64,000 bases of DNA, taken from the NCBI GenBank assembly GCA_034687125.1, contig JAQGBZ010000132.1:1-64000 (forward strand), in the 5' to 3' direction. Source of the DNA: Neelides folsomi. Its lineage: Eukaryota; Arthropoda; Collembola; Neelipleona; Neelidae. The stretch's first letter is position 1. Each line of letters starts with the position of its first letter. The notes under the pieces were generated by a model. The model was given only the letters and a program-made list of their open reading frames with translations. It was not told where the DNA came from and did no database searches. Made by a program: the position numbers and the translations under genes. Positions 1,464 to 57,700 of the stretch are shown here, one piece after another.

Positions 1464-3017
1464 TATGTTGGAAAGTATGAGTACTATGTAAATGATAGCT
1501 AATCACTTTTACAAATATTACTACCTATTACTCAAAGGCTGAATTTGTAAAATATTTATCTAAAAGCAACTATCCGTAGCTTCATTCAAAACAAACTTTT
1601 TGCATAGAAATGAAAGTCCAGTGAAGATACAAAATGCCTTCTAGCTATAGTCACCCACCCTCCGATTTGACCGTTTGGGACTTTTATTTAAAAATAGCTA
1701 TTTATTTGTATTGGATAGCCACATGGGAGAAATCGACTTTTATTTCTTACTTTAAAATCATAATATCTAGGTACCTACATAAATATAAGTTCAAGTTATA
1801 AGCTTTTTGAAGTTAAGATGGTTTGATATTTGATTATAGTTATACGAGTTAGTAAATACGTACTAAATTACAATATTAGATATTAGACACGTCAATTTGC
1901 CTAGGTATAATTTGCCTAGCTTATCTCTAAGTTAGTCAGAAAGTTTGAAGATTAATAATTTAGTTTATTCTCTGTCCTGCTGATTTCCCATCTAGTTATT
2001 ACCCGCTATACGCTGTGTTAAATTCTATTAAATGGCTAACTATGCGACTGGGTCTCATAATGACCACATCATATATGCATAAAGAAAAGTGAGGCATTAA
2101 AAAGCTCCGTATTCCAGCTTCCTTCCCTATCAATTTCCCCATTTCCCTTTCTTCGTGAATGTAAAGGAAGACTTCTCATGTTGTGGGTCTTGAAGAGTCT
2201 GTGAGATTCGAGGGGGCGAATCCATTAACCGGCCACCTCCCTCGAATGAGACAGGTGGAGGGGAGACTTCAGGACACGGGTGAATTACACACTTCTTCGT
2301 GTCGCGGCCGCGTCTTCCTCGTCCCTTGTTTTAAGAGGAGCACAGGTGGAGGGAAAAAATATATTGATAGCGAAAACTAATTTGAGAATACGAAGATCCG
2401 CTTTTTGCAATTTACTTTTTATTCTTTTGACTCATTTACATATAAGAATAACATGACCTATGATTTTATACTTTTTATTTATTTATGATTATTTTATTTT
2501 ATGCTTATTTTATTCCAATAACTATATACGATCGAATTTTATGTTTATATTATGATGATTTTAAATACATTGTTGAATCATTTATTTGATCTATTGTTCT
2601 GAGTTATTGGGCATTTTGCATTAAACTTTGGGCAAATCTGGAACGTTTTGAACCAAATTGGTAATATTTTGATCTAGCCCCCCCCCCCCCATTCCCAATT
2701 CCTGGATCCGCCCCTGCGCAGGATATAGTATGTTATCTTATATTTATAAACTTTTTCTGGTTCAAACCTCTCTCTTATAACAAAATCAAATGCCATTATA
2801 ATATAATAAGTACCATACATTTACATCATTTCTATTGGAATATTTAAAAATGTATCTTGGTTATTTGGATAAATATTTAGTTAATTGTTCACGATTAAGC
2901 TAAAGATTATTAAGTTAATGTTAAAATCATTATAAATTGAAAGAGTGTTGATTTGAGTGTGTAATTAAAAGAAGAGTGTGGGAGAGTTGAAATTACTTTT
3001 CCACTTTTTGATTTTAG
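1464..3017. other. Intergenic stretch
   Basis: No exon is recognised. A GC-richer patch at about 2190-2350 stands out from the AT-rich surroundings but has no coding match I can name. A run of 13 C residues and a transposon-end-like motif lie at 2678-2716 and are listed separately. Confidence 0.5.
2678..2716 (-). mobile_element. Possible DNA-transposon end next to a C13 tract
   Basis: Bases 2678-2690 are 13 consecutive C. Bases 2701-2716 read, on the minus strand, CAGGGGCGGATCCAGG. That motif resembles the CAGGGG-type termini of some hAT-like cut-and-paste elements. I found no partner terminus in the window, so this may be a solo end or chance. Confidence 0.25.
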
Positions 3018-3313
3018 GGAGAGTTGTGTCGGGCTACAGAGTGAGACGAGACTTTACGAGTGGGAAAGATCAATGGACGCTCATTGGGAAAAAGAATCCA
3101 ATGAGACCTCAAATGTTTTATCCAGTTGAGACGAATATGACTGTCGTGAAAGGAGACACTTTGGTAACAAATGCTCTAATTATAATTAAAGGACTTATAA
3201 TTAAAGATCAAAAGTCTCATTAACTTTTCCTTGTGGAAATAAAATAATTAATTTTGTTTTCAGGCTGCTAGATGTACAATGGTTAGTACACGGTCGAGAA
3301 TCACAAGAATAGG
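3018..3313 (+). pseudogene. Orphan exon pair of peptidylglycine alpha-hydroxylating monooxygenase (PHM/PAM)
   Basis: PHM is the copper enzyme that starts C-terminal amidation of neuropeptides in secretory vesicles. Two open exons are visible. Exon 3018-3163 contains VVSGYRVR, then QWTLIGKK, then QMFYPVETN and KGDTL. Exon 3264-3313 begins AARCTM and ends at RITRIG before GT. They have clean AG and GT borders, a phase-0 junction and no stop or frameshift. They match the family order 'SGYRVR...QWTLIGR...FYPV...GDLLAARC', the segment just before the GTSSDEMC copper-site region. I find neither the upstream catalytic exons (first copper-binding histidines) nor the downstream GTSSDEMC exon nearby; an antisense protease gene begins 270 bp further on. 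It is probably a duplicated fragment or gene relic. An intact gene with very long introns leaving the window cannot be excluded. Confidence 0.7.
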
Positions 3314-3580
3314 GTAAGGATTTTAATTTACAATTTAAGTTTAAATGGAATTTAAGTTAACTGAATTTAAATAATTGTGACGCTTTATAAATAAATAATT
3401 ACTGTTAATTATAAATTATTGTGCATGCTTAATTGACAATTGCGGTAAATAAATGATCACGAGTTTCTTTTAATTATCAACTGTATTTATTAAACATTGT
3501 CAAGCCATAAAACTTATAAACTTAACTTTAAAATTTTTTCATTTTTCATTTTTGATTGAATAAATTATTAGGTAATAATT

Positions 3581-6500
3581 TTATTCCCTAACTGAATCTA
3601 AAATCCATTTAAGGTATTTTCTAACTTTTGTGTAAACCACCGGAGCCTCTCCTTCACCGCAATCTGATCGACCAAATGAAACAATTCCAACTTGGAAAGT
3701 TCGAGCAGACATTTTGGCTGGAGATCCGGTCATTGTAAGAGGACCGCTAATTATAATAATTAACATTTAATTTAAATCGTCATTAAATTATTAAAGCATC
3801 ATTAAATCTTACCCGCTATCCCCCTGACACGAATCTTGACCTTTTTGACCTCCGGCACACATCTAATAATTTTAATCACAATTAGCTAAATTGTCATTTT
3901 TTTGAAATTTTGTGTTTTCTTAAATTGATTAAAAAGTGAATAAAATTATATAATTAGTTAATGTTAATGTTAAATATAATGTTACTTGATTAGCGCCAAC
4001 ATTAACATCTTTGAATATGCTTCTGCAAACTGCAGGAGAAGTTAAGGGAACTTTCACATATTGCAAAGTTGTACTTCCAATATTCTCATCTGGGAAAGAT
4101 AAAACGCAAAATGAATTAAAAATTTTAATTCAGCCACGAATTGAACATTAAGTTTAGGATTAACAATTTAACATAAGAAGATAAATAAAGATGAAGTTAA
4201 AGTTAAATGAAGTTAAAGTGAATAATTTTGCAATTTAAATTGTTTTTTACTATTCGTAGTTTTTCCCCAACCGGCCACGAAAGCTTCGAGTGTTTTGTAA
4301 TTTGGACTTTGTTCAAGATTCGTTTTCAAATTGTATTCTTTAACAAAGGGAAGACAAATTGGTCTCGTGAAATCTGAAAAAGACGATTTACAATTATAAT
4401 TCACATTTATAAAAGCGGCGATTCCCCAAAAAACTATCATAACCACCCTAAGCATTTAATAATTTAATTATAAATAAATATAATTTTTTACTTTAAATGT
4501 TGTTTTTTAAGATTAAATGCGTGGTGGACAATTGGTTTATTGAAAAATTTGAATTCATGGAAAAAGGGTGATTTATCCAATGGATGAATCAACAAGAGCT
4601 AAACCTGTTTGACCACAACTTTGTCATCATCTTCATCCATAAAGAATAAAGAGGAAAGAAGATGGAACTTTATATAAACTTCTATTCATAGAGATCCAAC
4701 TTGGTTCATTATAATAAATTCATAATAAATATTAACAATAACCTTTGAAGCCTTTGACGCAAAAAGTGCGAAATGAAAATATTCATCAGATCTGAACCTT
4801 CATTATTGCAGAAACTGTCGAGCGTAAAACAAGTCGATCAGATGTGTTATAAAATATTTTTAATTCTTTTATTTTTTATATTTGAATCTCAAGGTGAGAT
4901 ATTATCTTTATATATATATAATTAACATACTATTATTTTAACTAACGTACTGCTATTTTAAATAATACAATATACTGTTATTTAATTGCTTAAATGTTAA
5001 TAGCAGATTTTACTTTAATTGATTTTAATAATTATATTTATAATAATCTTAAATTTTTCCTTAGGTCAAGGTTTGCTTGGAGGTGGAGGATTATTAGGTC
5101 TTGGAATTGGTAATTTAAAAAAATATAAATTATTATATTGGACATTGGATTAATTGGAACAAAATTTAAATAAACTATTTTAATTAATTCAGGTGGTGGA
5201 AGTAAACCAAAACAAGGAGGGAGCAAAAATGGAATTTTAAATTTAAATCTCGGTGAAGTTCTCCCAATCCTCCCATTAAATGTCAATGTTGGAAATAGCC
5301 GAAATGGAAATCCCGAAGTGTGCGGATCAAATGGAGACAAATGTGCACCTGAAGGATATCTCCAAAGTTTAGGAATTAATTGGAATGAAAAAACCTATTT
5401 TAATAAATCAGGTGTTGTCATTCCAGACAAAGAAAAAGGCGAACCAAGATTTTACTTTGTTGGTCATAATCAGGTAATTTTAATTAATTACACTTCTAAT
5501 TAATTTAATTAGTTAAAATTTTAAAATTTTAATAATAAAAAAAATTTTTCTTGGTTCTAAAAATTTTATTCTTATTATTTTATATTTTAATTTTTGAATA
5601 AAAAGGCGAATGGAATATTTGGTGATTGCATCACACCAAAGAATGAACTTGGCCATTGCCGTCACCTTCGTCATTGTGTCCAAGATTCCTTTAAGAATGA
5701 CTATGCGACCTTTGTTAAATATTCGTGTGTGATTGAGGGGACTTACATTGGAACTTGTTGTCCTTACAACAAACTTCCGGTTCAATTTGGCGAAGATGAG
5801 CCAACAAATCCCAAACCAACTCGTCGGCCAAATAAACCCAGCAGAAGTTCAAGGCGAACCACAAGACGACCATATCCACTCAAAACAACATTTGGAGGAA
5901 GGGAATGTGGAATTAGCGAAAAACAAATTTCAAGAGTTGTCGGAGGAAGAAAAGCTGATCCAAAAGCATGGCCATGGATGGGTAAAATATTTAATCATAA
6001 TAATACCACAATCATTAATTAATTATAATTAATTTTTTTAGTTAATTAATAATTAAATTATTTTTTATAGCTGCTCTTTTAAGACAAGATAGGGGAGATG
6101 AGTAAGTGGGATTAAAATTCACAAGTTGATTAAATCCAGCAACAACAAACTAATAATTTTTGTTGTAAACTTTTTTAATAGAATAATTAACTTAAATTTA
6201 ATTGATTTTTTGACATTTAGTGATTCTCGTGCTGGTCAATATTGTGGAGGAGTTTTAATTTCAGAATTTCATATATTGACAGCTAGTCATTGTGTTGATG
6301 GGTAATTAAAATTAAGTAAAAATTTACAATTTTCAATTAAGAAAATTGTATATTTATTGTATATATTATTGTAAATGGTAATTAATTAAAATCATTCAAT
6401 TTTAGTTTAGAAATTAAAGACATAAGGATTCGACTAGGAGAATATGACTTTGCAAATTTCAATGGAACAAGTACGAAGGATTTTGAAATCACGCAAATCC

Positions 6501-9280
6501 ATATTCATGAAAAATTTAACAAGTAAATTATTGATTCTAATTCTTATTAACTTTAAGATACCTAGTTATTATTTATAATATAAGTAAAGAATGTAAATGT
6601 AGTTGCATCTTTAAATATGATTAAAATTAATTTTTTATACTTCACCAGATACACTTATGAGAACGACATTGCGATTTTAACTCTGGGGAAATCCGCATAT
6701 TACAACAATGAAATTCGTCCCATTTGCCTTCCACCACCCAGGGAGACTTTTGAGAATCAAATTGGCGTTGTTACTGGATGGGGAACAATATAGTCAGACA
6801 CCATACAAACATACAAACACAATCCCACAATATATAATTTACCTGACCAAATGTTGAATTAAATAACTTATTTTATACTGTTTATTTGTATTAGTTATGG
6901 TGGTCCGCATTCAGACGTTTTAATGGAAGTCTTAGTTCCAGTTTGGAATCAACAAGATTGTGTGGATGCTTACACTCAACCAATTCTGGTAAAAATAAAT
7001 TCAGAAAATACATTCAGGAAATGTATTACTTATACTTACATATACAGGGTGGGCCATAAGTTGCTTTCTTTTTTAAATAAACAATCGTACTCCTTCGACA
7101 AGAAATAGAACGAAAAATTTTGGCTTGCGCTACCTTCCTTTATTTCGCATTCATCAAACGAAAATTTGCGGCTGCCGAGAGGAAAAAAGAAATGCAAAGC
7201 CCAACCAAGATTTTTCGTTCCATTTCCTGTCAGGGGAGTATAACAAAAAAGCAACTTATGGCCCACCCTGTATAATTATTCTTTATCCTGCTTAATATTT
7301 GCTAAAATATCTATTATAAAACAATTAATTTTAATTGTGATTGTCCATGAAAATAGAAAACGAATTTATGTGCGGGAGTGAGATCTGGAGGCAGAGATTC
7401 ATGTCAAGGGGATTCAGGTAAGAATTTGTTAACAATTAAATGGGATTTAAATAGGATGTTAAATATAATTGATATTTAATTATGATATTAATTATATTTT
7501 AATTGGAATTAAGGAGGTCCGCTCCAAACGGAAGTTCAAGGGAGATGGGCAACAATTGGCGTTGTCTCGTGGGGAATTCGATGTGCAGAACCAGGATTTC
7601 CCGGTGTTTATACAAGAATCACTTTATATAATGATTGGATTGGAAATATTATACAATAATTATAATTAAGTGAATTATTATAAAAAATAGCATAATTAAA
7701 ATGATTAAGAAGAAGGGTAACTAAACATTTAACGTTTATTATTTAATAATATGAAATAAAAGAATTAATTTAAATGGAAAAATAAAAGATTTTTCTTACA
7801 TGAAGTGAGATTTACATCTCTGTCCAATCTCACAAGAGCAATGTCATCACCAGTTCCGATCACATCACGATTGTAATGAGGATGAATGACGATTTCTTCA
7901 AATCCGAAATTCAGTGATTTACTGCATTCGATGATTTGAGTCTTTTGGTCTAAACTTGTATATTCAATGCATTCATTCTCAACGTTTTCATCCGTTTCGG
8001 CCAACTGCACATCATGCCTTGCAAATTAAATATGAAAAATTAAATATTAATTAATTAAAGTTAATTAATTATTCCATCTAATAAATGTAATTTATGTTTA
8101 ATTTATTTAATTGGCTAATTAATTTAATTACAGTTTAAAACTCAGTTCCTTAAAGCAATGAGCCGCAGTGAGGATATATCGTTTGTTAATCAAAGTTCCT
8201 CCACAGGCATAAATCACATTTGTCCCATTGTCATCTGTTAGAATTTAATTAAAAAAAATAATTTATTTCTAATTAATTCATTATAATTAATTGTAATTAA
8301 TTTACTTGAGAATCCAAGTCTTGCCATCCATGGATTGTCACCAGGTTTAGCTGTGATACCCCCGATGATTCGATTTGAACTGAACGTTTGACCGCAACTG
8401 GGTGGAAACAATTTGAATCTTTTGTGTCCGCTGTGGTCAACCGCCGTTTCAACTGTTTCATTGTAAGATGTGAGCGGACAGCAAACCTTGAACAAATAAA
8501 ACATTTGAAATTACATATATGAAAGAAATTATTACAGGTTCAAAATAAACACAATTTTATATAATAAACACAATTATTTAAAGATCAAAATTTAATAATT
8601 GTAAATTTTAATTGTATTTAATAATTACAATAATTAAATGTATTTTTATATGAGTGTAATAAACATGTATTTTTTTAATACTTGGCGTGTGTCGGCGGAA
8701 TCTTGGCATAAGGCGCGTTTAAGCCCTTGGAAATCTTTTGTTTTTAATAATTTGTAGAGTGGAGGGCATTTCCGCAATTTTGACTGCAAATTAATGCAAA
8801 TTCCATCTTCGTTGGTTTTGGTCAAACAGGGAATGGAATCCTCGGTGTGTTTTATTCGATCTTCAATAAATTCAACTAATAAATAATCAAAGATTAATTA
8901 AAATTAAAAAATGGCTTAAACTATCTGTAGATAAGATTAAAAATGGTTTAAACTTTATTAGAATAAATATTAATTCTTAATTCTGCTCATATTTATTTTA
9001 ATTATAATATTTAACTATATTTTACAAATTAATTTAAAAAGATCAGACAATCTAAATTGCTTTTAACTTTGAAAAATTTAATAATGAAGATCATCTTGTT
9101 AAACAAGAGACATGATTTTTAACAATTTTTAATTATTTTTCTCGATATAATTATTTTCCATTAATTAAACTTGTTGATCGAATTACCTGATTCCGAGCGC
9201 ACTACGTTTATAAAAACGAGAGTAATGGAATAAATAAGAAGCCAAACTCGTCCTTTTCCACAATTATTAAAATCCAACAT
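3581..9280 (-). CDS. Clip-domain serine protease A (CLIPB/easter-like), host of a nested gene
   Basis: Secreted trypsin-like zymogen. Exons in order: 9187-9280, 8682-8875, 8306-8486, 8132-8234, 7800-8017, 4251-4373, 3986-4089, 3813-3862, 3581-3746; 1233 nt in total, 410 aa, all phases compatible. Residues 1-31 form a signal peptide after the ATG at 9280. A six-cysteine clip domain spans about C48-C99 and ends VCCP. Activation should occur at R135, before IIGG. The catalytic triad is His182 (TAAHC), Asp249 (DDIALV) and Ser355 (GDSGG), with Asp349 at the S1 base, giving trypsin specificity. The Cys-containing insert and [12 protein letters not shown] after the His exon are typical of easter/prophenoloxidase-activating proteases (CLIPB). 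Likely role, inferred from family: an extracellular Toll or melanisation cascade. The fifth intron (4374-7799) contains protease B on the opposite strand; the join [12 protein letters not shown] across it is phase-exact. A candidate poly(A) signal lies at 3486-3491. Confidence 0.9.
4671..4678 (+). promoter_or_regulatory. Candidate TATA box of protease B
   Basis: TATATAAA lies about 165 bp upstream of the chosen ATG (4842). That leaves room for a start site near 4700 and a short 5' UTR. In AT-rich DNA such a match can be chance. Confidence 0.3.
4842..7659 (+). CDS. Clip-domain serine protease B (CLIPD/proclotting-like), nested in an intron of protease A
   Basis: Exons: 4842-4893, 5065-5109, 5193-5473, 5606-5981, 6071-6101, 6221-6301, 6406-6522, 6649-6792, 6895-6988, 7357-7417, 7514-7659; 1428 nt, 475 aa. 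A hydrophobic signal peptide starts at ATG 4842; an in-frame ATG at 4773 would add 23 residues and bury the signal, so I prefer 4842. A glycine-rich leader (about 18-45) and a Cys-containing block (from C75) precede the clip domain (C134-C178, ending TCCP). A Pro/Arg/Thr-rich linker leads to the activation site at R236 before VVGG, followed by the AWPWMAAL stretch seen in CLIPD/proclotting-type proteases. Catalytic residues are His285, Asp334 and Ser427; Asp421 gives trypsin specificity. Exon 8 uses donor GTCAGA just after ATATA; without splicing the frame hits TAG. The whole gene lies antisense inside the 3.4-kb fifth intron of protease A. Confidence 0.9.
7043..7272. mobile_element. 230-bp palindromic MITE (long form) in the ninth intron of protease B
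   Basis: Both ends read TACAGGGTGGGCC toward the centre, flanked by TA. Internally the arms keep pairing: GAACGAAAAAT on the left is matched by ATTTTTCGTTC on the right. The element is therefore a near-complete hairpin with arms of about 90 bp. It looks like the parent form of the six shorter copies in the window. The TA insertion site and CAGGGTG-type ends suggest mobilisation by a mariner-like transposase (inference). Confidence 0.8.
7755..7760 (+). terminator. Candidate poly(A) signal of protease B
   Basis: AATAAA 96 bp after the stop codon of protease B and only 39 bp before the splice donor of the host gene's fifth exon (GT at 7799-7798 on the minus strand). Other A-rich hexamers nearby make this choice uncertain. 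Confidence 0.4.
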
Positions 9281-10096: not shown

Positions 10097-10192
10097 GTTC
10101 ATTTGGGGAACATTGGGCCCATCAACTATTCTTACAACGTCACCTTCGGTTGGAGTTGAAAAAAACACTTCATTTATTTTTTTAACCTCATA

Positions 10193-10272
10193 TACAGGGT
10201 GGGCCATAAGTTGCTTTATTTTCTATATAAACAATCAAATAAAAAAGAAAGCGGTTTATAGCCCACCTTGTA
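10193..10272. mobile_element. 80-bp palindromic MITE
   Basis: Starts TACAGGGTGGGCC and ends in its diverged inverse (GCCCACCTTGTA), inserted at TA. The core AAACAATC is shared with the copies at 7043, 14729 and 54645. Confidence 0.75.
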
Positions 10273-13023
10273 CAATTCATACTACTCATGTACATTTTTA
10301 TATTTGTAGAATTCATACAACTTTTACTCATAAACAACATGTATTGTATTAGATATATTATATATTTATGTGTTAGATAAGATATTGGGGATAAAAAATG
10401 AGTCTCGTGATAATTTTAGTCTTCAGAATGCGCATATTAAGATTGAGCTCATAAAGAATGGTAAATGGCAAACTACGTGGAGAGAATTAAAAGATGGAAA
10501 AGAAAATCATCCAAGTAATTTATATATGAAGGCTGAAGGTCAAATTTCCACAATTAAATCTCATATGTATTTCTTATAAGTTGGATTTATAAGAACTTAT
10601 ATAAATATGAGTATTTGATTATAAGTGTAGTACGCATTATAATATTTGATTCATATCTTACTATACCATATATTCTTACTACATGAATGTAAATCATATT
10701 CATATTCTACACTGTGTAATTCTTACATACATGCTATAGCCAATGCTTGTAAGATATGTAGATTATGGCAAATTTTATATGTAAAAATTGAGATATTAAA
10801 AAAATGTTTTTGGTTCTAAAAATGTGCGATGGTCCCAATTGATTTAACATGGTTCCTGAGAGATAAAAATAAAGCGTGGGAAATGTTAACAACACATTTC
10901 CTATCTCCCACTTTGCTAAAAATCTCCAACATCATACATTTTAAAACCAACGTCAGTTCGCGTCATTTTTATAAATTTCCTTCTCCAAAGTTCCAAACTG
11001 ACAATTCCTTTGTTCTCTCCCATTACTTTAAATTGGTTCAAATGTTGAAAGTAGAAAAAAGGTTCAAGAATCTTTAAAGGTCAAAATTGCATATTCGAGT
11101 TATTTCATTCAAATGTCAAACCATTATACATAAAATGTAATAAACTGTAAATAGTCAACATAATGCAAATAACAATGCAAAAATGCAAAAATCGTTATAA
11201 ATGCATTTAATTCATTTAATGTAATATACTTTTATAGCTATAGGTTATAGTTTATGTTTATTTATGTTTATACTGTACAGTCATTGTATTTAATATATTT
11301 ACTATAATTATATACCTCAGTGAATAAATACAATACAGATAAATATTCATTGTAAATTATTCATTGTATCATTTAAACTGTTTATTATTCATTGTGGTCT
11401 TCAATTGCATGGAGTTTTTTATGCTCCAATTCCTTTTGATTGTTCCAAATTCCGTAAAATATTTTAAATGATGAAAAAAATGTTTTTATGGGTTCTAAGA
11501 GCCACCAGCATTTTGCTGTTCTGCACCGTTAAAAGACACCTTCTTTAATTGTGACTAACTATGGTTGGATTCTTGAAAGGTAATTCATGGCCCAGAGGAA
11601 ATACAACACATTTCTCACAACGCACAGAAACCCCAAAATCCAAATCATTCCAACGGAGTCCAAATCTCCGTGCGAGAAGTGTGCGAAGTCACGTGAAGTG
11701 TGAGCAGAGGAAATCTCTCCAGATTTATGCCAAGATTAGGGGAATTGTGAAGGATGGTTGGAAACAATGGAGAGAAAAAATTATTTACGACTTGGAAAAT
11801 AATTCTTTAAGATTTAGAACCAAACTTAGATTCTTCGTATGAATTTCTTCTTCAGATTCTTCCTCGGATTTCTTACTTGGGTTTTTGCTTGAATTTCTGC
11901 ATGTATTTCTTACTTGGAAAGTTGTTTGGATTTTTGCATGAAAATTTGCATGAACTTTGCTTGAAACTCTGCTGAGATTTTTGAGCTTGGATTTCCATTT
12001 GTAATTAGAATGTCATTGTGAGATCATGAGTCATTGACTTCCTTTTTTGATTGATGTGACTTCTCCACTTCAAGCGTTAACTTCAAGTGTTGAGACCAAG
12101 AAGCGTAATAAATGGGAATTAAAGTCATTGTTGCACTTTGCCATCATGGTTTACCTTTGGTGAAAAAAATCACCGCGAAATCCACTTCAGCACAACCAAT
12201 AAACCAATACAAAATTTACACTGTTTATATACTGTTGGAAAATATCTGTTAAACGTAAATACATAGTAATACTGTTAAATCTATAGGCATAACATTTACA
12301 CTACATCACCTATTTAGCTAAAGATATTTTATGCATTTATACTACACAGTATGTGTAAATACTATAGCATAAAATTATATGTATATCATATATATACTAT
12401 ACAATTATATCATGTATAGTATTTATGTACAATTACATTTAGACATCGTTAAACATAATGTTAAATGTAATTGTTTTCATTAGACCTTGTCAAAACCCTT
12501 AATGAGCCATGTCTATATAATATATTTAGTACTTACATATACTTACTTTATTTGTATTATATAAGAATATATCATACATGTATTGGGTATACTATGTTCT
12601 ACATATGTTCATATACTTCTATAAGCATATAAGAACCGTTGTTCTGTAAATTCCTCAATTTGTCAAGTGTGAAGACTTCCATGTCGATTGAGAGCAGAAT
12701 TAGACCTTTGGAATTGAAGAGGAAGGAAATTAAAGAAAGTCATTGTCTCATCGGAACTCCTTTAAATTTGAATAGGTGAACTTTTCGCTTCCTCCTTCTT
12801 TGCCTTCTTTTATTTAGTGAAGTGGGAAGGAAGCAAAGCAAAGTTTATGGTTGAGAAGAAGTTCATCTAAGAACATTCCGTTCCTTCCCAAAAGTTCCTC
12901 CATGTAAACTTCTATGTTAAATTGGATATTAATACAAACGTCGTCGTGGTTTTCCAGATGCGGTCGAAAATGCACAAACTGCGGATTAACATCTCAATAA
13001 GCCCCAATTCCCCCTTAATTTAA

Positions 13024-13643: not shown

Positions 13644-16600
13644 ATGATGAGACGAAATTCGAAGATTCTTCTTTCTTCACTTGGTCTTTTCCTCCTCCTA
13701 TTTTATGCCTTGAGTCTCCTCACTACAAATGGAGTTCTTCATAATAAGGTAAATAAATCAATTCTAATTAAAAACCAATTTTAATTAAAATCAATTTAAA
13801 ATCAATATAAAAGACATTTTAATTAAGATCAATTTACAATCTAGATAAAATCGTTTTTAATTAAAATCAATTTACTTTAAATGCTGTCAATTTTATTTAA
13901 AATCACTTTAAAATTGCTTTAAATACTGTCAATTTTTTAGTTGACGATTTTTGAATTTTGGGTGATTTTCAAATTATCGAGATCGAGATGAGATTTTTTT
14001 AAGTACTAAAAAGTATATAGTATGATTTTTTGATATTTTAATTAAGGTGATTTTTCAATAAAAGTGATTTTGTTAATATTTTGCTAATTAAGGTGTATTT
14101 TAAAATCGAGGTGATTTTGATGGCTTAATCCTAAACCTTTTTACTAATCTATTACGGATATAAGGGGAATTCTAAATTTCACACTTTGTTGATCAGGGGA
14201 AGGTCGGCGAAGTTGGGATGGTCGTGGCAGTGAATGATATCGAACAAGACAGCTCCGTTCCAGACTGGCAACTTCACCTCCAAAAGGAACAATCCCACCA
14301 ACAACATCCGAACAGCGAAGTCCAATTGACCCAAGAAAATCCCTATCATTTTGACCGGGTTGTTGGAGTACACGGAGAGGTCAATCAGGGTCAGGGGAAT
14401 GAAGGGAACGGGAAAAAGCTTCTCATTCCATACAAAGTCGTTCATTTGGATTTCAAAGGCGCTCCGCCCAAGTTGGAATATCTTTTTTCCCTCTTTCCCC
14501 TAATGAAGGAAGCTGGGGGAAATGCGGTGCTCATTGAGTACGAAGACATGTTCCCATACGAAGGAGTTTTGAACGGATCCGCTCATGGGAAACATTTTAC
14601 AAAGGTACGCTAATTAACTAAATACAATTATAATTACAATACAATTACAAACATTGTCAACTAACCGTAAATGTCAATATCATTACAATTCAACGTTATG
14701 TAGATCTATAAACACAATGTGGTTTATATACAGGGTGGGCCATAAGTTGCTCTCTTTTTTAAATAAACAATCGTATAAAAAAGAAAGCAACTTAAGGCCC
14801 ACCCTGTAGATCTATAAGTGGTTTAAAATAAATTTAATTCATATACCGAAGTTAAGAAATATAATTCATGTAGCTATGTGTAGTTATTTGTATTTAAGTA
14901 ATTGTAATTTTAAGAAGCTTTTACAAGAACATGTTAATTATGGTTAAGAATGTGTGTAATGACTTTATTTTGTAATTATTAAATAGGAGGAAGTGAAGTC
15001 ATTATTAAAGGCGGCTGCTGACAATGATCTCGAGGTTATTCCTCTCATTCAAACATTCGGACATTTGGAATTTGTCCTTAAACTGGAGAAATTCTCGAAC
15101 TTGCGTGAAGTCGATGAATTTCCTCAGGAAATTTGTCCTTCGAATGATAAATCATGGGAAATGGTGAAAGCCATCATTGACCAGGTGAGACTCAATCATT
15201 CATATCCCAATTAAATACATATAACATGTCAGTTAAATATGCCTATACCGTACCTATACCCAGTAAGCCCATTATTACTAACTAACTGACATTGAGACAT
15301 TCCTGTATATGAAGATTATATGGACATATGTCATTCATTGATTGGGTTTTAAATATTAATTATATTAACGATGTTGGATGTGTGCAGGTGATGGCCCTCC
15401 ACCCTAAAATCAATTACATTCACATCGGATGTGACGAAGTTTACCATCTCGGTGAATGTGAAAAGTGCAGGAAAAAAGGTCAAAAGGATGTTTTCATCAA
15501 CCACGTGGTTCGAGTGGCGAAGTACATCAAGAAAACATACAGAAAGAATTCCATCATTTGGGATGACATGCTTAGAAAATATTACACGGAAGATTTGGCT
15601 AAATCTGAAATTGGTACAATCAAATATAAAACATATAACATAATAATATTCTTTATAAAAGACATAAAAATACCTATATGAAATACATACAATTCCCATA
15701 TAAAAGATGTATAAAAGACATATAAATGATATATACAAAACATAAATGATACATGAAAGTCATACAAAACATGAAAAGGATAAAAACATTAAAAAGAGCC
15801 CAATGCCCTCATTTTCCTTTTTGTAACAATGCCGTTTTTTCACCACTTTCTTTTTTTATACATTTTAGGAGACGTCGTTGAGCCGATGATTTGGGACTAC
15901 ACGGAGGTTTATAAAATTATAAGATTTTCCAATATAACTATATTAACTTTCTAAGTTTGATGATGATGTTATATGATTTTATACAGTTTATACATTAAGT
16001 GTTAGTGAGTTATAATGGTAATTGTTTTGTCACGATTTGATGAAACTAATCAATAATTTTTGTTTTGCAGAATGTGGACCATTTAGTGAGTCCTTATCTC
16101 TGGCCAATGTATGGTTCAATCTTTAAGAACATTTGGGTCGCCTCGGCTTTCAAAGGAGCTTTTGGGGAAACTCTTTACCAAGTTGACATTCAACGACATG
16201 CAATGAACCAACTCTCTTGGGTATTTATAAATTATCCTAACCTAACCTAAGTTACATATATCATGTATCTGTACAGGGTGGGCCATAAATATCTTTATTT
16301 TTTAAATATACAATCATATAAAAAAAAAGATACTTATGGCCCACCCTGTATATCTGTAACGTTTAACTAAGTTTACCTAACTTAGTGTATATTTTTATAT
16401 ACTGCTTTATATTGATTATATTGAATGAATCAAATGAGGAAAATTCCTTTGACATTTTTCCTTAATTGGCAGATTAAAACAGTGCAGAGGGAATCTCCGC
16501 GTATTGCCAATTTCCGCGGTGTTGTTATTACCGGTTGGTCTCGTTATGATCATTTTGCCGTCCTTTGCGAACTCCTCCCTCCTGCCGTTCCCTCCCTCAT

Positions 16601-18567: not shown

Positions 18568-19925
18568 TTAAACAAAGTGATGGGTGTCAGACCCGGGGTT
18601 GGAATTACCTCCCCCTGTGCTTCCTGGTCCAGTTTGTTGCATTTGGATCACCGGATGGTTTTCGTCACCCATCCACCCTGATTGAAGACGCTCCCGAACA
18701 TCGTGATATTCACGTTGAAGACACAAAGCAGCAAAGGCGTGGATGAACATTGAAATGACAGCGAAGGCATAGGCCCAAGACAAATAATTAAAATTGGGAT
18801 ATTGGAGCCAATCCCTTCTGTAGCATTGACCTCCAAATATGGCTACAGCCAAAAATATGAGAAATGCTATAAAATAAATATAAAATCATTAAAAATTAAA
18901 TACTAACTATAATTATAGTAAATATGAAAAAATAATTAAATTGACTTTTTAGTTAGTTAATTGTTAATTAATTAGTTAATTTTACTATTTTACCTGAAAG
19001 TGCATTCCCTCCCATTGCGACTGTTGTCAGAAGCCATTCATTGTCAAGAATCAATTTCAATGGCCATCGTGTGATCATTAAAGATAAAAGAATGAGCGAT
19101 GCGAGAGACGTCATGAAGGCGAGTGTGTAGAAAGCTTGGACTGTCATCAACCAACCTGAAATTCCAATTAAAAATTCACCTACTGCCAAACTACAAGTAC
19201 AAATACTTCCCAACCCCTTTATTCAAATTTACTTTAATACTAATTACTTACTTTAAGCAAAAACTAAAACTTAAATTTTTAATAGATTTATTTAGATAAT
19301 TAAATAATTACCTGGTAAAAGCCATTCTCGGATAATTCTGAACTCTAAACTGAATATGTAATGACATCCCGTAAACAGCTTGTCGAATTGGTAATGTGGA
19401 TGTCGATAGTTGTGGAAGCAATATTCCCAAAGACCCATGTTTTTGAAGGGACTGAAAGTGTACTCCCATGAGACAAGCCAATATGGGCTATTTAAAAAAT
19501 ATAATCATAATTAAATATTTAAGATAGCATAAACATTCAACCTAATAATTTTATGTAATTATTTAAATTTTTAGTTTTATTAAATAATTAAAATCGGTGT
19601 CAATCATTTAATCAACAAAAATATTTATTCAAATACCTTGCAAAGGCGAAAAGTAAAAACACGAAGGCAATGAAGGAAAAAGTACTTCCAGTCACAAGAG
19701 CAGCTAAATAATACAAAATATTAAATTTTAATTAGTAATTTGTAGTTAAATAAGAGCTAATGTACTTAATAATTAAATTGAATGATTAAATCGGATAATT
19801 AGATTGGATAATTAAATTGAATAATTAATTAAACGGTTACGTGATGGTTTTGGTATTTGGATTTCATATTTCTCATTGTGGTGATGTGAAGACATCCGAG
19901 ATCTGGATGACATTGCGAGAGACAT
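18568..19925 (-). CDS. Claudin/PMP22-superfamily four-pass membrane protein (pasiflora-like)
   Basis: Exons in order: 19841-19925, 19637-19703, 19312-19487, 18994-19155, 18568-18866; 789 nt, 262 aa, all phases match. A short cytoplasmic N-terminus with a His run (SSHHHNEK) is followed by TM1 (TGSTFSFIAFVFLLFAFA). The first extracellular loop carries the claudin-superfamily signature: W, then GLW-x-x-C, then a second Cys (TGCHYIF). TM2 (around TVQAFYTLAFMTSLASLIL), TM3 (around LSAFLIFLAVAIFGG) and TM4 (around WAYAFAVISMFIHAFAAL) follow, with a Gly/Ser/Asn-rich cytoplasmic tail ending in HHFV. The loop sequence GLWEYCFHNYRHPHYQFD resembles insect pasiflora proteins of septate junctions more than vertebrate claudins (from memory, so tentative). 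A role in epithelial junctions is inferred. Confidence 0.8.
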
Positions 19926-49679: not shown

Positions 49680-52207
49680 ATGGTGCAAACGGAAAGTCAA
49701 GAAATGGAAGTTGATGAACAAATTGAAACCATTACATTGAAAGGTAAAAAACATCCATGATGGTTTAAGTCATTTAAAGGTTTATAAGATCAACGAGCAT
49801 ATGTTTAATTTAATATTTAATTATTGGTTAATTAATACAATTTAATAATATTTGTTTAATATTCCAGTCTTGCCAATTGTGAAAGAACGTCAACAACAAC
49901 ACGGCCTTCGTCACAGCGACTTCCAGCGTTATCATGGATATTGTTCAAGACGACTTCGTCGACTGAGGGAAACTCTTAAGATGCCGCAAGGAGATCGGAG
50001 ACATTTTAAGAAGAAGGAAATCACAGCTTTGGAGTTGGACACGGTCAAAGGAGATCCGAAATATTTGGAAATTCCTTTAACGATGACTGAAAGGTATACA
50101 AGCAAAACAGTAAACTATAAATATTTTTGTGATTATTTAACATTTTAAATTTAATTATAAAAAATGTTCAAGTTTAACAATTTTATAATTGTTTTAATTT
50201 TTAGAGCTTGGGCCTATGCCATGATGTTGAAACAAGAATCAAATACCGATGCGAGGAAAAAATTCCATTTGATTGCCAGAATGAAAAAAGCTGTGGCTCA
50301 TTCGACAAAGCTTACGGAACTTGTTCACGAAAGCAATCGAGTTGACGCTCGGACCAAATTGGAATGTGATGCTTATGCTGCCTTCATTCAAGCATGTTTT
50401 TACTTTGAGTTAAAAGTTTGGGAAGAAGCGATGACTTACTACAAAAAAGCACAGTAAATTGAAATTAACTTTAATTAACTAGAATTTACTAATTATTAAT
50501 TATTACTTGTTAATTTACTAATTGATTTAAAGGGCCATTTACATTCAAGTTGGACAAGCTCTTGGTCCTGAACATCCAGAAGCGGAAATTTATAATGAAA
50601 AATCGGCCGAAATTCTTCCATCACTCAGATTCTGTGCTTATCAAACTGGCGAAGGTAATTCATTAAATTAATGATAATTAAAATATTCAAATCATCAGAT
50701 TTAAGATTATAAGAATATAAAATACTGTAAACTTATAAATATTAAGGATATTTCATATTAATATTAAGAATATTTCATATTAACAAATAAATATTTAATT
50801 GTGAATTATTTTTATGATTTTGTTTAGAGTTTGAAATTTCCGAGTTAGCTGCTGAATTTCAATCAACTGCCATTCATGCAATGATTGCTCAGAAGCCAAA
50901 AATGGCTGAAATTGATTTCCGAAAACACAAAATTCCAATTCCAACTGAAAGGATTGCGACCGTCATTGTGCGAATTGAAGAATTTGATAAAAAGCCTGAC
51001 AAAAAGGTTGAAATGTACGAAGAGATTTTGATTGATTTGAGGGATGCGATTCAACATATTCGAGAAACGTCAAAACAAGAAGTGGTAATTTAATTATTTT
51101 ATATAAATGCACATTACCTTGTAATTCCATTTAGTTAACTATTTAAAATGGAATATTCGATTTATCTTTTCTTTATTGTACATTTTAAACAGTTAAAATT
51201 AATTATAATTTTTAAACAGCTGCAACAAGGCACAAAAGCGAAGCCGAATATGGCATTGAGTTATTTGCTTTATCTTCGTCTGAAAGTGACTAACTCTCGA
51301 ACAGAATGCATGATGAAGGAAAAACAAGCCAAGGATTGTGTTCGTTTGAGTGAAATGGTCATTCACAATTACAATGAAATGAAGACGATTCCATCATTCG
51401 AGGAAGACGAAGATTTCCAATCTGAAATCAACGATTACATTTTGGCATTCAAAGGAATTCGATGTCGCTACTTGGGCGATGTTCTCAAAAATACAAAGAA
51501 ATGGGGCGAAGGAAAGGCGATTTATGCTCAAGCTGAAAATTACTTCAATCGCTTGGCCAAAGGTAAAATTTTATTTTATTTACATTTATAAATTTCAACT
51601 TTGTTAAGTAAATTAATTTACAATTAAACTTCTAATTAAATTTGCAAAATGTATTTCATTCAATAATAAAATTTCACTTTTTTAATTGAAAATTTTTTAT
51701 ATTGATAGGAACATTGAAAAATCCTGAACTTGAGAAAAAAGTGAAGGAAGCTTGGGACCTTGCAAAGGCTGGATATCTTGAATGCAGAGTTCAACATATT
51801 TTGGCTGAAGACAATGCGGACATGGAATCGGCTGTGAAACTTGTGAAAACGAATGATCTTTTGATTGATCGTTTGGATAAATACGTTTTGGATGAAAGTC
51901 TTCTTACAACTAATCCAAATGTGGCAAATTTCCCACCAGAATTTCGGTAAATTAATTATTTGATTAACTTAACAAACTATCTATGTAAATATTTATTTGA
52001 AATAATAACAATATTTAATTTTAATTTTTTAATTATTTTAGACCAATTCCGCCAAAACCTCTCTTTTTCGATTTGGCATTGAATCACATCAAGATGCCAC
52101 CAGAAATTGAAGAAAGTGCTGGAATTAAAAAATCACCAACTAAAGAAGGAGCTGCTGGAATTAGCGGATTTGTAAAGGGCTTGTGGGGTTGGGGAAGCAA
52201 AAAATAA
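49680..52207 (+). CDS. Srp68: Signal recognition particle subunit SRP68
   Basis: Cytosolic subunit that, with SRP72, binds the S domain of SRP RNA and is needed for elongation arrest and ER targeting. Exons: 49680-49743, 49868-50093, 50205-50453, 50533-50654, 50828-51084, 51220-51562, 51709-51946, 52042-52207; 1665 nt, 554 aa, all phases match. The N-terminal RNA-binding region shows the family signature QQQHGLRHSDFQRYHGYCSRR, LRRLRETL and then ERAWAYAMMLKQE. Helical-repeat (TPR-like) sequence follows, with ECDAYAAFIQ and FELKVWEEAM. The conserved FRPIPPKPLFFDLALNHIK near the C-terminus contains the SRP72-binding region. The protein ends in a Gly/Trp-rich GLWGWGSKK. It is somewhat shorter than vertebrate SRP68 (about 620-630 aa), mainly at the N-terminus and in linkers. 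Housekeeping gene; introns are all under 200 bp. Confidence 0.95.
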
Positions 52208-53445: not shown

Positions 53446-54644
53446 TTGGTCTCTTTGAGTGTTAAAGATTCAAGGAAAGTTGTCGAATCGTGCAAAGGTT
53501 CTTTATCGGCACATAAGAGATATTCTTTGGAAAAAGGGTTCTTAAAGGGGAAGGAACGGGAGATATAGTTAATATATATAATAATGACTCGATCCAATCG
53601 TCTGTGAACACTGTGAAGAGAACCATTGGAGGGATATAAGTTAATATACTTTGACTTTAAATGGTTCATGCCAAGTGCTTCCCATTCCAACACATTTCAC
53701 ACTTTAACTTTCCAACTCCGATGACTCCAATGAGGGAGGTTATGAAATGAATAGGAAAATCCTCATTTTACAAAAATTTACCTTCAATCCCTTTACGATC
53801 CCTTTCGTTCCTTTGGCCCTAAAAAACTTAAACTTAAAAAATTCTAAAATCATGACATTTTCTTAAAAAACTTGAAAATTCTTAAAAATTTTCTTAAATT
53901 TTCATATTTCGATATTTGGGTTATATTTTTGACATTAAGTCAATTTCTACTCAATCTAAGTTGAATCTAAGCTGAAACTAAGTTGAATCTAAGTTGTATA
54001 AAGCTTCAGTACTTCTAAGTTTATCAAGAGAAGCCAAACTGAAGTAAAGTAACATTAATGGTAAGTACAAAGGCAAGTTGTGAAAACAAGAAAGAATCTT
54101 TTTGTCAGAATGAAGATGATGAAAGGGATACTTTTACTTTTGACTCTCTGAGAGGGACCAAAGTGAGTGGGCGTCGTTTTTCTTATCATCTCTTCGTCCC
54201 GATGAAGAAATTCCATTGGAATGAAGGAGAGAAGGCGATGAAGGAAATGAGAGAAAAATGGGGAAGGAGGAGAAAGTGAAGATTGTAGAAGAAGAAGGAA
54301 GAACCGATCAAGATCCGTTTCCTGTTCTCTCTTTCTCTCATTGGGATTCATTCCGAAGACTCCTTTGGTTCAACTCCCCTTATTTTCCTACATTCCACTA
54401 GAGAAGGAAATGAAACTTTTGTTCAACTGGATTTACTTAACTTTCAGCCCGAAACTTCTCCCTTAAAAGAATGAGAACTTTCCTTTCTTCAGATCAACCA
54501 TATAAAATCTCTTCACTATTTAATTTCATCCAAAGAATCCAAAACTCAATTATTTTATATACAGATAATACAGATATAAATATGTAAGAATATATATAAG
54601 AATATCTTAAGTAATACTGTATAAATATCTTATGTATGTATATG

Positions 54645-54724
54645 TACGAGGTGGGCCTTAATTTACTTTCTTTTTTATACGATTGTTTATTTAAAAAAGA
54701 AAGCAACTTATGGCCCACCCTGTA
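54645..54724. mobile_element. 80-bp palindromic MITE
   Basis: Right end GGCCCACCCTGTA is intact; the left end is mutated (TACGAGGTGGGCC). The loop is ATACGATTGTTTATTT, inverse to that of the 14729 copy, so the two are inserted in opposite orientation. Confidence 0.75.
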
Positions 54725-57700
54725 TTATTCATAATTACATTTAAAGATGAAATAAATAAATAGATTATACTTTACATGCAAATAAGCTAATTGTATTAAG
54801 ATGCATATACTATACAAATGTACAGTTTGTACAAATGTATTGTATTTGTATGGAATGGTTTGGGTAAATTCTTGAATTTAATTTAATACTTTCCCACACA
54901 AATAGTTTTGAACATTTTGAAGAGTCTTAAGGAAAACTTGAAAAGTCGTTGAATTTGTTCGTGTGTGAGGAAACTCATTTAAAACATGTTCAATGCTGCA
55001 TGGGGCTTAAAAGGGAATTTCCACATTTGGGGAATAATTGGACCGGAGAACAATTGTATATGTAACTGTATGTATGTAAGTGTGTGTGAAGTTTTGAAGA
55101 AAGTTGAATCAGTTCAAATTCTTCAAATTTTAATTAATTGCCTCTTCAATCCCAAAGTTGACCTAAATTGTTTGAGTTCGATTTAAACTTTCCCAACTTC
55201 TCCTTTTTATTATAGATTGGAAAAAGGGAAAGGGATATGCAAATGAGCTCAGAATCTTTCATCTCTCCCTATTTTAACTAAAAGTAAGTATTTTATTAGG
55301 AAAAAAGCCAATTAGGAAGAAAACTCTCCTTGAGTCATTTCATTCAAATCAATTTAATTTCTCAAGTTCTCAAAATTCTCAATTTCTCCATTTCTCGAAA
55401 TTCTCAATGGATTTCATCTCAATGGATCTCAATAGGAATTGAAGGACTTGGAAAAAAACATAAGGACTCACATAAGTACGGACTTACTGTATATTGTATA
55501 AGTACAGTACTGTACATAAAACCCGGGTTTTATCCCGGGTGTGTAAAACTACCCGGTAGTCGATTTCCTCAATTTCCCATTCCCCCCATTTGCATTCTGG
55601 AGTGTAGGATTGTATCGGAGGGGGATTTCTTTGATCCTGAGGGTGGCTCCATGGCCCATAATGGTTCCTTGATGTCCTGACTCTCCCCCGGACTCCCCAA
55701 ATGGAGAAAGTGGATGGAGAGCAGAAGGGTGGGTTTGAGATCTCTTCGGGAATACTAAATACCCGAGGGTGGAAAACAGGAGAGAAAAACTCTTCGAGGG
55801 AAATTGAAATGAGGAAAATTAGAATAAAGAACGAGGAAAATACCAATTGACTTTCCACCACTTACATTGAATTATGTACAGAAGAAGAACACTCCTGTAC
55901 TTATCGACTAAAGGAGTCTTCCTGGGTTCCTGGGGAGTGTTGAGGGCGAAGGAAACCTTTCGGGGGAGATCTTTGGATTATAAATAAAAGCATGCTTGGA
56001 GAATTATCATAAATACATTTCAGCTCAATATTACCTTGTTTAGCTTATCTACATGACATTTGGCATTTACATAAAATTGTTTCGCAGTTTCTTCATCCTG
56101 CTTTCATTCTTACACTTTTTGCAATTTAATGGAAAGTACATAAATTATTAAAATCACTTGGGCATTTTTTATTCAATTCCTCCTTAATCCTAAAAATTAA
56201 ATATTTATTATTCTACAAAAATCTTTTAATTATTTAATGAAATATTATTTACACTTAATAATTATTATGAAAAAGCATTGAGGGTCAAAATGAGTTCTGT
56301 TTGGAGATTTTGATTATTTTAATAAAAAAATTAATTTAAAAGAATTGTTTGGAGTGTTTGGATTTGTTTGGTTTCGTCATTCAGTGGATGATTAATTGAA
56401 GGCATCTTAGTTCATTTGGTTGAGTTGTTCCATTGAGTCATTTTGCTATCTGAACTTCTCTCTTTGTTTCGAGTCTTTGGAATCTCTTTGAGCAAAATCC
56501 CTCTCACCGCAGTCCCAAATGGTTCGGTTGAGTGAATGGGGAAAGCAAACAGGAGAAGAGTCGTGAGAGAAATGCGAAGGTGAAGGAAAGACTTGACTTA
56601 CACTCACAATTAGCAAAAACCTCCGACTCATCCAAATTCAAATTCAGGAAGCATAAAATACAAATCATTCTGTATCAAATAACTCTCACTTTATCAAATA
56701 ACTCTCACTTTATAAATGTATGGTTTTATACATTAAATATATGGTTTGGTTTTGGTTATCAAAAATAAATAATTTGGAATCAATTCGTAAACATGCCATA
56801 AGCCAATTTATTAAGCCAATTTATTAAGCCCATTTCCTAAAAATTCAAGTTAAGGAAGGAATGTAACGTAAGTTAAAGAATGTGTATGGCAAATAGTAAA
56901 TAACAAATAAGACTTTAAAGTGGTAAATTGAATCATTTTTATATCAAAACATAAACATGTAAAATGTGATGCTTCTTTTGAATTTGGCCAATTAAAGAAA
57001 AGATATTGCTAAATATAAAGAGATAATGTTAACAAGAGAATAATGTAAAAAGATAGCAGAAATAAAGAAAGAACTGAGATTAAGAAAATTTTCTTGTAAT
57101 TTCCCTCAAGGGTCCAATCTCCCTCGTCTCCACAAATATTTAAGAAAGGAAGGGAGTGAATAAAAGAGGAAATATGATCTACAGTCATTATGAGTATTTC
57201 TAGAGTATATTTCTGTATATTTTTATATTTCTCCTTATATTTCTCCAAAATTGTGAGTGCCATATTTCTCAATCTTCTCTCATGGAAAGGACAGGAAAGT
57301 AATTAAAAGGCTGAAGGAATTATTAGGTGCTGAGACTGGAAGGGATGGAAAACAAAGAAAGAAAAGGCCGTTTTTGCATTCATTAAATATTGGCTGACTC
57401 GGAGCATAAGTTGGGAAAGACAAAGCGGATTGAACGACTTTTTTACTCCTCTCTTTATCTTCGCTTTTATGGGCTTTTTGAAGGATGAAGAAGATTTAGG
57501 TTACTCGGCCCCGCCTTAGCCATTCTTGATCGTTCCAACTCAAGTATAGGAGAAGCATATAATCCTTTAATTTTTTTATTCCCAAGACACATAATAAGAA
57601 TTTGAAGGAGAGAGATATGGACTATAAGGTTCCATAAAATAATCCCTATCAACCTATGATCTTTAACTCGTAAAACATCATTTTTACCCAATTTAGACAA

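Follow-up and report, generated by a model that had tools for sequence, protein, structure and literature searches.

A clip-domain serine protease gene of the collembolan Neelides folsomi with a complete, antisense serine protease gene in its predicted fifth intron

In a contig of the collembolan Neelides folsomi (GenBank assembly GCA_034687125.1, contig JAQGBZ010000132.1), two stretches of minus-strand protease-coding sequence lie on either side of a protease encoded on the plus strand. The question raised by this locus is whether the flanking stretches are two partial genes or the halves of a single gene (here called A) that is split by an intron large enough to hold the other one (B). The window examined here is the whole stretch of DNA analysed, comprising the first 64,000 nt of the contig. 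A first-pass annotation of this sequence had favored the single gene, with B located entirely inside the fifth intron of a nine-exon A. The coordinates of both gene models and of the features discussed below are collected in Table 1.

Table 1. Features of the nested protease locus, with positions given within the window.
Feature	Position	Strand	Remarks
Host gene A, clip-domain serine protease	3581..9280	-	9 coding exons, 410 aa; full-length Trypsin, CLIP at aa 48-99
A exons 1-5	9280-9187, 8875-8682, 8486-8306, 8234-8132, 8017-7800	-	
A exons 6-9	4373-4251, 4089-3986, 3862-3813, 3746-3581	-	
A exon 5	7800..8017	-	Donor CAT/gtaaga at end, phase 1; holds DIAL (catalytic Asp)
A intron 5	4374..7799	-	3426 nt, contains gene B
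A exon 6	4251..4373	-	Starts after acceptor ctttttcag; first residue (T) split
Guest gene B (S1A serine protease; six-cysteine clip-like segment)	4842..7659	+	11 coding exons, 475 aa
TATATAAA, candidate B core promoter	4671..4678	+	Inside A intron 5; weak candidate (AT-rich DNA)
AATAAA, candidate B polyadenylation signal	7755..7760	+	Putative
Second AATAAA, candidate B polyadenylation signal	starts 7781	+	Putative; 19 nt before A exon 5 edge
Transposon-like element in B intron 9	7041..7274		33-nt inverted ends, 94 per cent complementary

The nine exons of A form an open frame of 1233 nt, or 410 codons and a stop. This matches the 411 codons originally counted, which include the stop codon. All eight introns have GT-AG boundaries, and the seven other than intron 5 are between 66 and 311 nt long. 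The joined protein aligns to Pfam Trypsin over positions 1-220 (165.2 bits) and has a complete catalytic triad in the motifs AHC, DIAL, and GDSGG. Its CLIP domain (PF12032) scores 22.9 bits against a cut-off of 20 and includes six cysteines (residues 48, 58, 68, 88, 98, and 99). The predicted activation site reads NR/IIGG (the slash marking the cleavage point), with an arginine before the cleavage point.

The case for a single gene depends on the junction between exons 5 and 6. Scored separately against Pfam Trypsin, the 5' half of A aligns to positions 1-101 with 63.4 bits and the 3' half to positions 103-220 with 97.5 bits, so the two halves are complementary and do not overlap. We then placed the junction by homology, using a purpose-written spliced aligner and two queries that are independent of the A model. 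These were the PDB matches 2olg and 2xxl, which we take to be PPAF-I and Grass, from a beetle and a fruit fly. Each alignment skipped B and put a 3426-nt intron exactly at 7800/4373, in phase 1. Three predicted paralogue proteins gave the same junction, though A had served as the query in building their models, so that their independence is incomplete. When Grass was aligned to the two parts of A separately, its residues 102-224 were found in the 5' part and residues 226-363 in the 3' part. The donor of intron 5 scores 8.0 and the acceptor 5.1, compared with ranges of 0.8 to 12.0 and -5.3 to 10.2 for the other seventeen introns of A and B. As the first-pass annotation had claimed, this donor and acceptor restore the frame and produce the peptide it gave for the junction, and the flanking halves read as one split host gene. 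The 7800/4373 arrangement is confirmed as a gene structure, as read from the genome sequence. At intron 6 the queries differed: PPAF-I gives 4279/4084, and we retained 4251/4089, which was picked by four of the five queries (three of these modelled on A). A far exon at 27018-26966, added by the Grass alignment over positions 1-30000, is probably spurious.

Gene B is also intact. Its 1428 nt of coding sequence are an open frame of 475 codons and a stop, and its ten introns (83-368 nt) all have GT-AG boundaries. It lies wholly within A intron 5 at the coordinates first proposed, leaving 468 nt of the intron upstream of its ATG and 140 nt downstream of its stop. The protein matches Trypsin (PF00089) over positions 1-220 with 207.1 bits, has a complete triad (SHC, DIAI, and GDSGG), and has an arginine before the cleavage point of its predicted activation site, SR/VVGG. 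A segment with six cysteines between residues 134 and 178 resembles a clip domain, with Pfam CLIP scores of 14.3 and 16.3 bits that fall under the cut-off of 20. Both A and B contain DSCQGDSGG, in which we take the Asp to be the trypsin pocket position, and both begin with hydrophobic stretches that resemble signal peptides when judged by eye. The inner part of the transposon-like element in B intron 9 (7146-7240) has a 97 per cent copy at C21:170837-170931. A short palindromic element that shares these ends is found at 10190-10275 and has dozens of genomic matches, including two more in the window (14726-14808 and 54634-54725).

The first-pass annotation also assigned the two proteases to different clip subclasses, with A as CLIPB-like and B as CLIPD-like. 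In a tree of twenty chosen catalytic domains, A falls within a six-row clade (100/100) with PPAF-I and Grass, the only two references in a tree that holds no CLIPA, C, or D sequence. We take both references to be members of CLIPB. Like them, A has a clip domain, the R/IIGG activation sequence, and an Asp that precedes the catalytic Ser by six residues, and a cysteine pair in A aligns with a pair in Grass. On the other hand, A is identical to PPAF-I and Grass at only about a third of the residues in the alignments shown. With a CLIP domain above the cut-off, this grouping, the aligned cysteines, and the activation site, the CLIPB-like label fits the sequence of A. The label for B did not stand in the same way. 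B has R/VVGG, a six-cysteine clip-like segment, and a full Trypsin domain in common with other clip-domain trypsin-like proteases, and the six cysteines look like a clip domain. However, the segment is under the Pfam CLIP cut-off and the references compared were PPAF-I and Grass; the CLIPD-like assignment is thus not established.

The same tree separates the two genes. A groups with the paralogous loci L040, L080, and L081 in addition to Grass and PPAF-I, and B groups with the thirteen other loci used, with 100/100 support for the split. Host and guest therefore belong to different branches of one superfamily, as had been suggested. With two of its 17 inner branches starred, this tree leaves the closest relative of B unsure; by score, the best relative of B is on contig C342. 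Among the twenty-seven locus rows aligned, L003 and L011 share with B an intron site at position 289 (phase 2), and L001 and L009 share another at position 328 (phase 2); no exact match to the other intron sites of B was found in these rows. The presence of ten introns, some at sites typical of the family, suggests that B moved in by relocation at the DNA level rather than by retroposition. Most likely, a distant member of the family would have been duplicated or transposed, introns included, to give B.

We also looked for the host intron in related genes. The catalytic part of A was aligned to 29 of 81 loci, several of them overlapping, and twenty-one of these alignments cover the intron 5 site. 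L040, L080, and L081 are the three best-scoring loci against A, and two of the three share the intron. In L081 (contig C4) a phase-1 intron of 190 nt precedes FVVPIC, and in L040 (contig C266) a phase-1 intron of 63 nt precedes FIRPVC. Both are in the same codon as A intron 5, directly before the F that matches the start of FTRPIC in A. L080, which is also on C266, is uninterrupted at this site. Only these two loci have a same-phase intron there (twenty-nine rows aligned, twenty-one covering); the remaining covering alignments either have no intron at the site or have one nearby in a different phase. Close to A residue 264, L078 (263, phase 2), L079 and L029 (264, phase 0), and L002 (267, phase 2) also have introns, which were discounted because their phase differs. 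The L081 and L040 models hold doubtful introns elsewhere, and L081 has GC donors. Because two paralogues have a guest-free intron in the same codon and phase, intron 5 is probably older than B, judging from these gene models. This age rests on two genes, since L080 is without the intron and only two rows match in phase. The simplest reading would be that the intron came from the ancestor of a small paralogue group, was lost in L080, and grew in A when B arrived.

Taken as a whole, we consider it very likely that A is one clip protease gene whose fifth intron, probably ancestral, holds a complete, antisense B that most likely arrived at the DNA level, and that each gene would have a separate promoter. 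The promoter of B would be located within 4374-4841. The pre-mRNA of A would cross B in the antisense direction, and the 3.4-kb intron would be spliced out with B inside it. Both genes would presumably be expressed, and the nesting may be tolerated rather than selected, with ordinary transcriptional interference at most.

Other readings of the locus were weighed against this one. The halves of A could now be separate units: the 5' half would end near the start of the intron, and a separate promoter would drive the 3' half from an ATG at 4455. The minus-strand frame 4455-4213 does begin with an ATG, and its hydrophobic stretch is in the reading frame of A exon 6, and AATAAA is found at seven minus-strand places in intron 5, including 7735, but this number is unremarkable for 3.4 kb of AT-rich DNA. 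Moreover, a separate 5' half would have no catalytic Ser, and a separate 3' half neither His nor Asp. The phase and the two splice sites are preserved, the halves join with neither gap nor overlap, and two paralogues share the intron, so we regard separate units as very unlikely. A misassembly that joined B from elsewhere into the intron of A could mimic nesting, and the assembled sequence is the sole basis here. Against this, the DNA is continuous within a contig of 159,475 nt, and searches of the 75-Mb assembly reported no second, near-identical B (39 of 370 candidates scored, not exhaustive); an error of this kind seems highly improbable. Non-exhaustive searches of the assembly also reported no second copy of the A-B nest. 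Last, a tandem duplication of A, followed by inversion into the intron, could have produced B, given that A and B are both S1A proteases and each has a clip or clip-like segment. This is scarcely credible when the two fall in separate clades at 100/100, when their alignment has only 86 identities against 146 mismatches and 43 gap positions, and when the best relative of B is on another contig. Since the clades are separate, B did not arise by local copying of A, as far as the catalytic domains can tell.

Beyond its structure, the nest had been proposed to couple or antagonize two steps of one cascade through opposite-strand transcription, a claim that we find unsupported. As an addition to the explanation preferred here, antisense B might repress or time A, or the reverse, leaving two protease steps mutually exclusive or coupled. 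The genes are on opposite strands, and the candidate polyadenylation signals of B start 45 and 19 nt before the edge of A exon 5, so that the 3' ends of B could overlap the A donor. If the second signal were used, the B transcript could reach A exon 5, which could provide a concrete route to interference. However, such hexamers are common in DNA as AT-rich as this, with thirteen instances of AATAAA on the plus strand within 4374-7799. In addition, PMC3786989, citing others, describes no significant expression correlation for host-nested pairs in fly and human. Regulation of this kind is unlikely. A further reading is a built-in switch, in which the B transcript ends at or across the A exon 5 donor and blocks transcription or splicing of A, two clip proteases of one cascade alternate, and the nest is conserved to that end; we think it quite unlikely. 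A scan for bacterial-type promoters and terminators was set aside as unsuited to this genome.

The window contains several other elements. Just before A exon 6, the minus-strand stretch 4455-4374 holds an in-frame ATG and a hydrophobic leader; its transcription, should it occur, could yield a short isoform that is catalytically dead. A Cu2_monoox_C (PF03712) exon at 3002-3172, presumably from a PHM/DBH-like gene, suggested that the A-B nest might itself be within an intron of a plus-strand gene. We rejected this outer gene because positions 2741-3494 are a shortened duplicate of the segment at C322:69227-71313, and the next C322 exon has no reported counterpart here. Positions 2741-3355 are 80 per cent identical to C322:69227-69924, with near-identical exons, and positions 3387-3494 are 94 per cent identical to C322:71207-71313. 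Farther along, exons of an SRP68 gene (PF16969, two pieces above the cut-off) are found on the plus strand at 49849-51588. There are also weak matches to Glyco_hydro_20 at 15313-15678 on the plus strand (20.4 bits, under the cut-off of 22.3), possibly from a hexosaminidase-like gene, and to Claudin_2 at 18571-18885 on the minus strand (19.7 bits, under the cut-off of 29.1).

Approximately 6 per cent of Drosophila melanogaster genes are nested in introns, frequently in antisense orientation to their hosts, and nesting is now seen as a largely neutral process (both from PMC3786989, citing others). PMC8467205 reports that host-nested pairs do not differ in their expression correlations from other genes of the same chromosome, and that a later Drosophila study found increased expression divergence in such pairs. 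The A-B nest fits this common kind. As in Drosophila, where 2mit is found in intron 11 of tim2 (PMC3786989), a complete coding gene sits in one host intron on the opposite strand. Unlike nests of the 2mit/tim2 type as described there, host and guest here share a superfamily and the guest has ten introns, which is less usual. The genome has 177 Trypsin-domain matches, counted by exon pieces, so a protease landing in the intron of another protease is not far-fetched. No second protease-in-protease nest was seen by eye among the Trypsin matches listed, and full-text literature searches, whose coverage leaves out most subscription journals, returned no report of a nested clip or serine protease.

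Automatic annotation could well divide A between two partial proteases or confuse it with B, and the model presented here would correct this. The pair also displays the steps of nesting, with a guest-free host intron in two paralogues and family-typical introns in the guest. Should both proteases belong to one cascade, the locus would offer a compact setting in which to test antisense interference; otherwise, it would be an ordinary nest.
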